From positions 1 to 53,483 of the forward strand of contig JAQVFO010000008.1 in NCBI GenBank assembly GCA_028697205.1: DNA of 53,483 bases, in the 5' to 3' direction. Both the position numbers and the translations under genes were made by a program. Origin of the DNA: Candidatus Altimarinota bacterium. Lineage in GTDB: Bacteria; Patescibacteriota; Gracilibacteria; BD1-5; UBA6164. Of the stretch, positions 6,408 to 32,152 are shown piece by piece; the first letter of the stretch is position 1; the number at the start of each line of letters is the position of its first letter. A model generated the notes under the pieces. The model saw only the letters and a program-made list of their open reading frames with translations, ran no database searches and was not told the DNA's origin.

Positions 6408-7961
6408 TTATTTAGCACAACGGAAACCTATATAACGCTCTTTACCAGTTGATATTCTTTGTAAACTTAATGAAAATAATCATGTATTTGCATTACTATT
6501 TGAACGATCTCAACGAACAAAAACATTATTAGCTACTCAATCAGCATACCAAATATTTCAAACTCAATTAGCTATTCAATATCAAAATGCTGAACCATAT
6601 TTTTTCATATCATCTATACCATATATTCAATCATCATCATAGTCTACTCAAGAAGTAGATCATGATACTGTAGTTTGTCATTGATTGAAATTTATTCAAT
6701 CTATCGTATTTGCTTTATTTACAAATTCAGAAACATTTCATGCAAAATCGTATATTTCTTGTCAATTTGAAAGCATAAATTTTCTTTTTAAGTTACATGT
6801 ATTATCTATTCATGGTCATGTTTTTGTTCCATATGTTCTTGTTTCAGTATTTCATCAAGTTACATTACATCATAATGTCATATCTCAAGATACTCAATTA
6901 TATAAAATACCTTTTCATGCAGATTTTATTGACCAATTATCTGAACTTGCTTCAATATTTCTTGCAATTGTCATCCATTCATTATTTGTAATTAGATGAT
7001 ATCATTCTCACATATTTCTACATGCACTTATAGCTTGTTCTTGACTTATATCAGCTATAGGATATTTTCAAGCCATTGATACTATAGGTTTTCAATCCTG
7101 ATATTGCATTGTATTCCAATCAGTTCATCACACGCTACTATCTGGAGTATTTGCATCAGCATATGTCATCTCATATTTTGCAACACAAAATCATTTTTGA
7201 TTAAATTCTAAATTTCATGGAACTCAAATAAATCAATCAGGACAACTTAATGGTGCAGCACTTCATTGTCTTGATAATATAACTGACTGTAAAGCATATC
7301 ATTTTGCCACTACATTATCCTTATCAGTAAAATTAGCTACATAATTTGTAGTTGTTGTTCATAGATCAACATATCAAAGGTTTTTTATTTCATTTACAGC
7401 TTGTATAGGTAAATTTGTAACATCTTCAGTTAATATTCACAATTTTTTTCAATAAACAGTTGGGTATCTATTTGTATAATCAATTGCATATGTTTTAGGG
7501 ATTAATTTATCACTAAACAATTTAGCATTATTACTAACTATTTGCTCATTTGAAGAATCTTCTAAAAATGCCATCAATTGAAAATATTTTCTATCACCAG
7601 TTACATAATATGAAAAAAACGTTTCATCTTTTGGATCAATTCATCATTTACTATATTGCATTGTTTCTAAAATATTTTTTCACATATATCATTGATATCA
7701 TACAATAACTCCGTTAGCCCTAACTTCCACACTATTTTCAGGTAATAATAAGTCGTTTTTAGTTCTATATACTTCTAATCAATCATTTATTGCTGCTAAT
7801 TGACTTATTCTATTTGTATCTCTAACTCATGCTAAATATCAGTTATATGATATAAATCATATAGTTCACAAAATAGCTAAAACTGTTATAACAACAATAA
7901 GTTCTACTAAAGTAAAAGCATATATTTTTCTTTCATTAATTACATATATATTATTTTTCAT
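6408..7961 (-). CDS. Prepilin fused to an FGE-sulfatase/C-type-lectin domain; candidate diversified adhesin
   Basis: 517 residues. Residues 1-40 form a prepilin signal and helix (YAFTLVELIVVITVLAILG). A pilin-like neck and a linker of about 200 residues follow. From about residue 235 the chain resembles FGE-sulfatase/C-type-lectin folds: GFCVAKYEMTYAD, GKYPIADISQEQAISAC, YHLITNNEG, then the hallmark DFAGNVSEFVN, and an ending VFVRGD...TGLFSLSL...YIGFRCAK. That last stretch matches in layout the variable region of DGR target proteins (a VRGG-W-NNG-type start, then G-F-L, then GFRC). Expected place: pilus tip or cell surface. The N-terminal start ATG is followed by AT-rich coding with no Shine-Dalgarno. 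No reverse transcriptase or template repeat is in the window. Confidence 0.85.
6411..6520 (-). other. Candidate DGR variable region at the 3' end of the lectin-pilin gene
   Basis: The last 37 codons carry four CGT Arg codons (in VRG, DRS, ERY and FRC), whereas Arg elsewhere in the window is almost always AGA. Constant residues of DGR variable regions are favoured to use adenine-free codons (CGT, GGT, TTC, TGT), and the final codons here fit. This is inference; a template repeat has not been seen. Confidence 0.45.
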
Positions 7962-25486: not shown

Positions 25487-25622
25487 AGAAAGTACTTAAA
25501 TATCTAGCTTTAAAATAATTAATAATGAATAACAGTACTATAAAGCTATTATTCATCGCTTATCATCTCTAGTTAATTTCCTAATCCCCTCTCAAGCAGA
25601 AAGTATAGCTAAGCTACTAACT

Positions 25623-25669
25623 AAAAAAAGTTCCTACAAAAATCTAACGATTTTCACAAGAACTTTTTT
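25623..25669 (-). terminator. Hairpin beyond the broken tRNA-Val copy
   Basis: AAAAAAAGTTC (25623-25633) pairs with GAACTTTTTT (25660-25669). It resembles the terminator of the real tRNA-Val at 25805-25857, as though terminator and tRNA end had been duplicated together. The 25487-25622 stretch upstream holds only a weak hairpin (25525-25556) and no gene. Confidence 0.6.
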
Positions 25670-25790
25670 AAATGGTGGGTGATATAGGATTCGTTCCTCA
25701 AACGCCGGAGACGGCTACGGGCCGAAAGACCGGAGCAACGGTCTTTCTAAAATTATTTTATAATTTTACCCTTCTTTTCGAATCCTATAT
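25664..25790 (-). pseudogene. tRNA-Val 3'-end fragment joined to a GC-rich palindromic insert
   Basis: 25664-25693 repeats the 3' flank, CCA end and acceptor/T-arm of the intact tRNA-Val (25860-25936) almost base for base. Beyond that the tRNA sequence is replaced by a GC-rich block with a GAAAGACC/GGTCTTTC hairpin, and the segment ends with the inverted copy CGAATCCTATAT (25779-25790) of ATATAGGATTCG (25682-25693). No D arm or anticodon arm can be built, so it is not a working tRNA. Confidence 0.65.
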
Positions 25791-25804
25791 TTTTACAAAC
25801 AATT

Positions 25805-25857
25805 AAAAAAACTTTCTCATAAAATTTTTTTCAAAAATTTCAAAAGAAAGTTTTTTT
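25805..25857 (-). terminator. Terminator of tRNA-Val
   Basis: AAAAAAACTTTCT (25805-25817) pairs with AGAAAGTTTTTTT (25845-25857); it lies three bases beyond the CCA end. Confidence 0.8.
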
Positions 25858-25859
25858 AA

Positions 25860-25936
25860 TGGTGGGTGATATAGGATTCGAACCTATGACCCTCTGCTTG
25901 TAAGGCAGATGCTCTCGCCAACTGAGCTAATCACCC
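25860..25936 (-). tRNA. tRNA-Val (UAC)
   Basis: Full cloverleaf with GGGTGAT/ATCACCC acceptor, anticodon loop CTTACAA, T loop TTCGAAT and encoded CCA (25860-25862). Last tRNA of the minus-strand series after the rRNA operon. Confidence 0.95.
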
Positions 25937-25950
25937 AAAGAAATTTTAAA

Positions 25951-26026
25951 TGGTACCCGAAGCAGGGCTCGAACCTACGACCTTCGCCTTAGAAGGGCGC
26001 CGCTCTTCCAACTGAGCTATTCGGGC
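25951..26026 (-). tRNA. tRNA-Arg (UCU)
   Basis: Acceptor GCCCGAA with a G-U first pair, anticodon loop CTTCTAA, encoded CCA. It reads AGA, by far the commonest Arg codon in this window. Confidence 0.93.
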
Positions 26027-26054
26027 ATATAAGATTTAATAAACATTTTATTGT

Positions 26055-26120
26055 AAGGTCTACGACCATCCCTTAAAGCTCGTCGCTCTTTCACAACTAT
26101 AGCTATTTGGGGATATAAGA
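26055..26120 (-). pseudogene. Decayed copy of tRNA-Arg
   Basis: Aligns over its length with 25977-26036 (shared TACGACC, CGCTCTT, AACT-AGCTATT and ATATAAG), but the anticodon arm and acceptor no longer pair and the CCA end is lost. Confidence 0.6.
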
Positions 26121-26122
26121 TA

Positions 26123-26180
26123 AAAGCTGAAAGGCTAAAGCAAAAAGTTCTCCACCTTCTTTCTTTAAGCTTTCAGCTTT
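26123..26180 (-). terminator. Hairpin downstream of 5S rRNA
   Basis: AAAGCTGAAAG (26123-26133) pairs with CTTTCAGCTTT (26170-26180); it may end or process the rRNA transcript. Confidence 0.5.
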
Positions 26181-26210
26181 ATTGTTTTATATATTTTAAC
26201 TTAATATCAT

Positions 26211-26332
<122 letters not shown>

Positions 26333-26430
26333 TGACATCAAGTTTAAAGAACATACTTATTGTCTTATCAAATCTGAACATTCATAGTTAGTCAAAGAAA
26401 ATTTATATAAATAAATAATCGTAAAGATGG

Positions 26431-29368
<2,938 letters not shown>

Positions 29369-29500
29369 ACCACCTAAAACTATTAGTTATTTGTCTAAAT
29401 TTTAACTCTTTGACTAACTATGATTATTCAGATTTTAAAGAACAAAATAAGTAAAATATTAGAAGAAAGTATTTAATCTACGATCTTTTTGGAAAAAAAT

Positions 29501-30971
<1,471 letters not shown>

Positions 30972-31092
30972 TTAATTTTTTATTGTATTGTTTATTATAG
31001 TTTTCCTAGATCGGTTTTTAGATTAAAACTTTCATCTAATATATTACCTATTTTATTTTAAAGAACACTCTTGTTTTTTTAAATGCCGGGTT

Positions 31093-31120
31093 ATTCTATT
31101 AAATTAATATCTTTTGTCAA
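31093..31120 (-). promoter_or_regulatory. rRNA promoter P2
   Basis: Minus strand: TTGACA (31120-31115), 16-bp spacer, TAGAAT (31098-31093), about 120 bp ahead of 16S. The gene-free stretch 30972-31365 holds this and P1 and is otherwise plain AT-rich DNA. Confidence 0.75.
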
Positions 31121-31182
31121 AACTTTTTTTAACTTTTTTATTTTGCATTAGATTTAAGACTAAAATACCCTAAAGTTGTATA

Positions 31183-31210
31183 TTTATAATATAAAAAATA
31201 TTTTTGTCAA
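31183..31210 (-). promoter_or_regulatory. rRNA promoter P1
   Basis: Minus strand: TTGACA (31210-31205), 16-bp spacer, TATAAA (31188-31183). Both rRNA promoters share a GTTTTGACAAAA context, suggesting tandem promoters that came from a duplication. Confidence 0.75.
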
Positions 31211-31365
31211 AACTTTTTTATATTATTTTATTTAACAGTTATTATTACTATTTTTACTATATATATAATTTTATAATAAAACTTTTAAATATTTTATAAA
31301 CTATTCTAATTACTTTATTTTATGATTTATTATTAATCATATTTAGTAATTATTTGTTTATGTAG

Positions 31366-31441
31366 TGGTGGGTCTGGTTGGGATTGAACCAACGACCAAT
31401 CGGTTATGAGCCGACTGCTCTAACCACTGAGCTACAGACCC
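31366..31441 (-). tRNA. tRNA with CAT anticodon (elongator Met or Ile2)
   Basis: Acceptor GGGTCTG/CAGACCC, anticodon loop CTCATAA, V loop TGGTC, encoded CCA. It has a paired first acceptor base pair, so it is not the initiator. Met versus lysidine-modified Ile2 cannot be settled by eye. Confidence 0.9.
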
Positions 31442-31455
31442 TAAAAATTTTATAG

Positions 31456-31545
31456 TGGCGGAAGGGAGGAGATTCGAACTCCTGGAACCAAAAGAGGTTC
31501 ACTCCCTTAGCAGGGGAGCCCCTTAAGCCACTCAGGCACCCTTCC
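31456..31545 (-). tRNA. tRNA-Ser (GCU)
   Basis: Class II tRNA with long variable arm, anticodon loop CTGCTAA, discriminator G and encoded CCA. Confidence 0.93.
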
Positions 31546-31704
31546 ATAAATTTGTAAAGAAACTTTTCTAGAAAAAAAGTAAAAAGCATAAAGGCAAAAG
31601 AAAATATAAAACATTTATTTTTTTATTCTAAACAAAGTTTTACAGATTTTTCTTGTAACTTTTTGCTTTTTACTTTAATGTAGAAAAATCTTTGATTTTT
31701 CAAA

Positions 31705-31792
31705 TGGCGGAGAGACAGGGATTCGAACCCTGGGTGACTTGCGCCACGACGGTTTTCAAGACCGTTCCGTTCAACCGCTCTGGCATCTCTCC
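31705..31792 (-). tRNA. tRNA-Ser (UGA)
   Basis: Class II tRNA, anticodon loop CTTGAAA (reads UCA), discriminator G, encoded CCA. The 160-bp gap to the other tRNA-Ser has an inverted repeat (AAGTAAAAAGC / GCTTTTTACTT). Confidence 0.93.
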
Positions 31793-31845
31793 AAAAACAA
31801 GTAGTATGTAAAAGAACTTTATTGTTTACTTTTTTTATACAAAAA

Positions 31846-31920
31846 TGGCTCCCCCGACTGGATTCGAACCAGTGACCAAACGGTTAACAGCCGTCTACTC
31901 TACCGCTGAGCTACGGAGGA
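31846..31920 (-). tRNA. tRNA-Asn (GUU)
   Basis: Acceptor TCCTCCG/CGGGGGA, anticodon loop CTGTTAA, discriminator G, encoded CCA. First tRNA of the minus-strand series that leads into the rRNA operon. Confidence 0.94.
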
Positions 31921-32152
31921 ATATCTATACATATTATCTACCTTTTTTATTAGGCGAGAAGGATTTTATAATTATTTTCTTTAAAGTCAAATATTTTTTG
32001 TTAAAATTTATTATTTATTATTTATCATTTTAAAATAAAAATAATTTAAACATTATTTATCATACTAAAATAGTGAAATATTTGTGTTTATTTAAAAAGA
32101 ATAATATAATTTTATTGTAATATTAAATTTTTAATTTTTAATTGATTATTTT

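Follow-up and report, generated by a model that had tools for sequence, protein, structure and literature searches.

A lectin-ended type IV prepilin of Gracilibacteria from a family served by diversity-generating retroelements, in a genome without its own

A prepilin ending in a lectin-like domain

The window, the whole stretch of 53,483 nucleotides analysed here, is contig C1 of an assembly that totals 1.27 Mb in 19 contigs, with an estimated completeness of 99.1%, and is assigned to a Candidatus Altimarinota bacterium; relatives recovered with the protein family described below carry the label Candidatus Gracilibacteria. On its minus strand, positions 6408-7961 form a single open reading frame of 517 aa in which 48 TGA codons are read as glycine (genetic code 25), lying between a pheS-like gene and a ribosomal-protein/rpoA cluster (both named from their translations). 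A second prepilin gene (MQQNSKKAFTLVELIVVITILAILGSIAF...) lies at 1-376 on the minus strand, truncated by the contig start, and about 6.7 kb of the window (25487-32152) is free of long open reading frames when read with code 25 and may be an rRNA region. The gene under study comprises the following features:

6408..7961, minus strand: prepilin of 517 aa whose C-terminal domain is predicted to be of the FGE-type C-type-lectin kind (open reading frame, Pfam/TIGR and PDB profile matches)
7860..7922, minus strand: prepilin class III signal and hydrophobic helix, residues 14-34, AFTLVELIVVITVLAIL (PF07963, TIGR02532)
7257..7859, minus strand: pilin body or linker module, residues 35-235 (own-genome matches)
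6411..7256, minus strand: FGE-type C-type-lectin-like domain, residues 236-517 (5VF4, E 1e-5; PF03781, E 0.001, below cut-off)
6417..6524, minus strand: tail, residues 480-515, counterpart of the variable region of the sister gene (below), without a template match in the genome

The original prediction had read this gene as a prepilin signal joined to an FGE/C-type-lectin-like domain, and profile searches recovered both parts. PF07963 (N_methyl) matched above cut-off at residues 14-34, as did TIGR02532, and a class III signal with F-T-L-x-E is followed by a hydrophobic helix, the sequence pattern of a type IV prepilin. The N-terminal ~220 residues are common to many prepilins of this and related genomes; a protein search of the genome itself returned 25 matches, many of them over about residues 1-225. 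Towards the C-terminus, PF03781 (FGE-sulfatase) aligned with residues 277-416 of the whole protein (E 0.005, below cut-off) and with the isolated C-terminal domain (E 0.001, still below cut-off), and it scored above cut-off for the sister protein. When a profile of 15 homologues was compared with the PDB, the sole match was 5VF4 (E 1e-5), which is TaqVP, a variable protein of a diversity-generating retroelement (DGR) with an FGE-type C-type-lectin fold and a variable region at 341-374 (PMC6328139). The main alignment spans TaqVP 82-208; a further, non-significant stretch, weak but in register, puts the window tail, which reads VFVRGDRSNSNANTGLFSLSLQRISTGKERYIGFRCAK, on TaqVP 340-380. We rest the proposed C-terminal fold on these profile matches because the structure model was poor (pLDDT 38, AlphaFold). 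From its sequence, the gene product is most likely a modular type IV (pseudo)pilin adhesin, and its probable role is to attach the cell to others by presenting a lectin-like binding domain on a pilus.

A retroelement serves the sister gene

The closest homologue (65% identity) belongs to G002, a genome of the same genus, and the two genes form a sister group with support 100/98 when the last 45 residues are excluded from the tree. The G002 gene lies on a 6.8-kb contig (L072) with this content:

L072 59-1627: prepilin gene, DGR target
L072 1511-1635: variable region (VR)
L072, between the prepilin gene and the YafQ-type toxin gene: small open reading frame, possible antitoxin
L072:1848-2321: YafQ/RelE-type toxin gene, between the DGR target and the Avd gene
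L072:2379-3140: MutS_I-bAvd fusion, 253 aa, directly upstream of the reverse transcriptase
L072 3133-4182: DGR reverse transcriptase, motif GSIISQ/YMDD
L072 4163-4287: template (TR), followed by ribosomal-protein genes

Over 125 bases, VR and TR are 88% identical, with TR 2.65 kb downstream, and within a 99-base core 8 of the 9 mismatches fall at template adenines (P 1e-4). The template encodes IFIRGANANNGTNAGLFTMNLNRTSGNQNRNAGFR, in which nine Asn codons stand between constant, largely adenine-free codons, the arrangement foreseen in the original prediction. Profile matches on this contig were 73 bits for the reverse transcriptase, 1.5e-8 for bAvd and 0.0019 for MutS_I. Judged by these repeats and profiles, the G002 homologue is a true DGR target whose template, reverse transcriptase and Avd all lie in cis.

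DGR components in the window's genome

The window had been noted to hold neither a reverse transcriptase nor a template repeat, and this extends to the whole genome for a DGR reverse transcriptase and template. The proposed genome-wide search for a reverse transcriptase and for a near-copy differing at adenines returned one enzyme of the DRT4 type and no template. That enzyme, the only RVT_1 match of the genome, is encoded at L001:739-2367 (G000:C11, minus strand; 542 aa, read with TGA as Gly). It matches PADLOC DRT4 at 5.5e-124 and carries the motif GPDTSN where the DGR reverse transcriptases examined have GxxxSQ, which together mark it as a DRT4-type defence enzyme and rule it out as a DGR reverse transcriptase. 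It adjoins a DnaK-like fragment. The sister's DGR reverse transcriptase found no match in the window genome at E<=10, nor did bAvd (PF22296) match there.

Repeats in the window genome were sought with three queries: the tail, a pattern derived from it and the sister's template. A blastn search for a second copy of the tail gave nothing beyond the gene itself and short matches of the kind expected by chance. The adenine-tolerant pattern, in which each non-adenine base may also be A, the exact form required of a template, hit the gene alone with up to 3 mismatches allowed. Nothing in the genome matched the G002 template at E<=1e-3; as a positive control, the same query recovered both G002 repeats, the template of a second genome, G047, and two tails in a third, G003. 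A DGR relic upstream of rplC, the site of the sister's cassette, is likewise absent; atp genes occupy that site, so the window and G002 loci are not syntenic. On reverse transcriptase, template and Avd alike, the window gene does not qualify as an active DGR target in its own genome. The predicted DGR-target reading therefore holds for the family, through its targets in G002 and G047, and fails for the window genome. The lack of a DGR reverse transcriptase and of a template repeat in this nearly complete assembly is what the original prediction had itself given as the first half of its refutation, and Avd is missing as well.

DGRs across the wider family

An alignment scan of contigs yielded 11 homologue loci, and a single-protein scan yielded none. 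In G047, from another genus, one template serves one gene in cis and two on other contigs, with 13/20, 11/13 and 17/20 of the differences at template adenines in the three targets; a fourth homologue there is unserved. Templates in these two genera (G002 and G047) share 80% identity, which makes horizontal movement of the cassette possible, perhaps into G002 after the split.

Three further genera of the same taxonomic family hold intact prepilin targets of other lectin-like types. Differences at template adenines make up 20/21 in G023, 20/21 in G024, 12/13 in G032 and 18/18 in G039, all intact prepilin targets that end in other lectin-like modules (FISUMP in two). Two targets in G008 differ exclusively at adenines (22/22 and 17/17) and both end in an Lcl_C domain, one of them on a prepilin-like body truncated by the contig end. 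Contig ends truncate several DGR targets, those of G021 and G029 are not prepilins, and many homologues sit in genomes without a DGR reverse transcriptase.

Two genomes show unusual states. In G003 (93% complete), two paralogous FGE-prepilins, L101 and L093, have template-like tails with an adenine fraction of 0.16-0.19. No reverse transcriptase was found in G003, and differences between the paralogues are spread about evenly over the gene; we rejected G003 as a genome with an active DGR. STC_112 (L148:1321-2569 / L154) has a DGR-type reverse transcriptase truncated after YMDD beside an FGE-prepilin target, and an antisense prepilin reading frame overlaps the end of the reverse transcriptase gene. 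No template is recognisable at this locus, and several orphan FGE-prepilin targets with diverged tails lie elsewhere in the genome. This may be a half-decayed DGR, or a mis-assembly.

Family-wide, we think it probable that these DGRs are largely pilus-diversifying and serve lectin-ended prepilins, some of them in trans, that cassettes are gained and lost and leave orphans behind, and that variable regions are obliged to use GGN for glycine, a mark specific to this genetic code.

Codon marks in served and unserved tails

Four CGT arginine codons had been seen to cluster near the C-terminus in a genome that uses AGA elsewhere, and the counts agree. Codons 483, 486, 509 and 514 are CGT and codon 502 is AGA, so that CGT accounts for four of the five arginines in the last 45 codons; the remaining 12 arginine codons of the gene are AGA or AGG. 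Their positions relative to the sister's template are:

6513..6515, minus strand: CGT, Arg483; constant position in the sister's template
6504..6506, minus strand: CGT, Arg486; opposite an AAT (variable) codon of the sister's template
6435..6437, minus strand: CGT, Arg509; opposite a CGT that is constant in the sister's template and has an AAT codon on either side
6420..6422, minus strand: CGT, Arg514 of the GFRC motif

Because the other window reading frames examined have 377 AGR and 19 CGN arginine codons (19/396 CGN), a chance origin of the cluster is unlikely (binomial P 2.5e-5 for at least 4 CGN of 5 Arg; within-gene Fisher test, P 0.002; both post hoc).

In the DGR-type genes (those of G002 and G047, with the template-like pair of G003), the last 39 codons contain 11-19% adenine against 38-44% in the remainder. 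The arginine codons of these genes (CGN:AGR) are 18:0 in tails and 6:39 elsewhere, and their glycine codons (GGN:TGA) 37:5 in tails and 43:177 in the rest (P 6e-18). Loss of TGA-Gly is expected at constant positions, because the glycine codon reassigned under code 25 contains a mutable adenine, and the GGN/TGA counts agree with selection against mutable constant positions. Avoidance of TGA-Gly in served tails makes DGR service in code-25 lineages simple to test for from genomes, even where no template is assembled.

The window tail departs from this pattern. It keeps AGA502 and two TGA-Gly codons, both aligned with GGN in the sister's template, and contains 33% adenine, compared with 41% in the rest of the gene. 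The original prediction's idea that CGT in place of AGA marks constant positions kept free of adenine is strongly borne out by the arginines of served genes; the window tail itself does contain codons with adenine. Unserved homologues share a weaker arginine bias (CGN:AGR 30:26 in tails, 40:147 elsewhere; common odds ratio 3.7, P 1e-5), so CGN bias alone is not diagnostic of an active DGR, and we rejected the CGT cluster as proof of DGR service.

Origin of the window tail

In the mechanism that we propose, the prepilin signal and hydrophobic helix would place the protein within a pilus filament or at the filament's tip, and the FGE-type lectin domain grafted onto it would bind an extracellular ligand, probably on another cell. 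The last ~36 codons in this family of FGE-lectin prepilins would form a ligand-facing variable region, rewritten by adenine-mutagenic retrohoming; such rewriting of the tail by a DGR is evident in the sequence of the G002 sister gene and of three G047 genes. The window lineage would once have had a cassette and then lost the DGR, and the orphaned tail would have drifted to AT-rich codons while keeping CGT arginines as a trace. Since the genome has no DGR, the window copy appears at present to be a fixed adhesin and not a diversifying one. The probable explanation, in our judgement, is a modular pilin adhesin of a DGR-served family whose own DGR is absent and was most likely lost; on the narrower question of loss as against never having had a DGR, we lean only slightly towards loss.

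Loss is suggested by sisterhood with a served gene, by the CGT trace and by the state of STC_112; the explanation as a whole is supported by a tail adenine fraction of 0.33 against 0.11-0.19 in served tails. Pointing the other way are the match of the window tail to constant template positions, the mobile-looking cassette and the CGN bias of unserved homologues. The tail matches 13 of 26 constant template positions, within the range of several unserved homologues (12-15) and below the expectation from 65% identity; this similarity is not distinctive, and we set it aside as proof of ancestry. The same figures suit a competing account to which we give about a one-in-three weight in our thinking: the window gene was never served and is an ordinary modular adhesin, a mobile cassette having captured the homologues in G002 and elsewhere and overwritten their tails. 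The tails of G002, G003 and G047 are near-identical in DNA (AGTAATAT[TA]TTCCTTCGTGG) despite lying on separate gene branches, tails cluster by DGR status and not by the gene tree, and many homologues are found without a DGR reverse transcriptase, with a CGN excess in unserved genes too. The CGT codons of the window gene could then, at the same tentative level, be inherited or under another constraint. Yet the CGN excess in the tails of unserved homologues needs explaining, for which past DGR service would be a simple answer, and the CGT of Arg509 and the L-x-R-x-S spacing fit the congeneric template.

Two other accounts seem to us very improbable. A complete, active DGR might sit in an assembly gap and diversify the window gene in trans: the assembly has 19 contigs at the completeness given above, C1 starts inside the truncated prepilin gene, and action in trans is seen in G047. 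But served tails are nearly free of TGA-Gly and far poorer in adenine than the window tail with its two TGA-Gly codons, and the congeneric template does not recognise the window tail DNA. It is about as doubtful that the C-terminal part is just an FGE/SUMF1 enzyme-like module of the ordinary kind and does not act as an adhesin, its DGR likeness reflecting a shared C-type-lectin fold only. The nearest Pfam family is indeed PF03781, and FGE-type domains commonly end in GFR(C/V); against this, the PDB profile search put a DGR variable protein first and matched no FGE enzyme, direct homologues are DGR targets, and a domain fused to a prepilin signal is more in keeping with display than with sulfatase maturation.

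Comparison with known systems

The prevailing view has CPR bacteria living attached to other cells, and pili have been reported between ultra-small cells and their hosts. Hypervariable, lectin-like prepilin targets would link programmed mutation to host attachment in a directly testable way, with the window gene as a contrast case: the same adhesin without the mutator.

Modular type IV pilins, with a functional module on a prepilin N-terminus, are known from PilB and PilC of Streptococcus sanguinis and are widespread in Patescibacteria (PMC8179133). In the parts of that census available to us, an FGE-type lectin module is absent from the modules named for the 15 commonest architectures, and programmed hypermutation, of which members of the family described here are targets, goes unmentioned. 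DGRs are enriched in CPR, where clade-2 targets usually have no recognisable membrane or conserved domain, for a reason left open (Roux et al. 2021, PMC8144416). Our systems resemble the DGRs of Patescibacteria described earlier in having bAvd-like accessory proteins (Paul et al. 2017; Roux et al. 2021). Unlike those clade-2 targets, the intact targets here are prepilins when read with TGA as Gly. Within the partly accessible literature combining DGRs with prepilins, type IV pili, Gracilibacteria or Absconditabacteria, no paper names prepilins as DGR targets; DGR diversification of prepilins in these Gracilibacteria thus seems unreported in the searchable literature, with priority uncertain.

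Like Mtd, TvpA and TaqVP, the window gene has, by prediction, a C-terminal FGE-type lectin domain, and in its homologues the variable region lies at the extreme end. Those homologues also share with the Mtd, TvpA and TaqVP systems adenine-specific TR/VR pairs, a reverse transcriptase and Avd. Unlike Mtd, which is borne on a phage tail, or the single-domain TvpA and TaqVP, they display the lectin domain on a type IV prepilin, and the window copy does so without a DGR.
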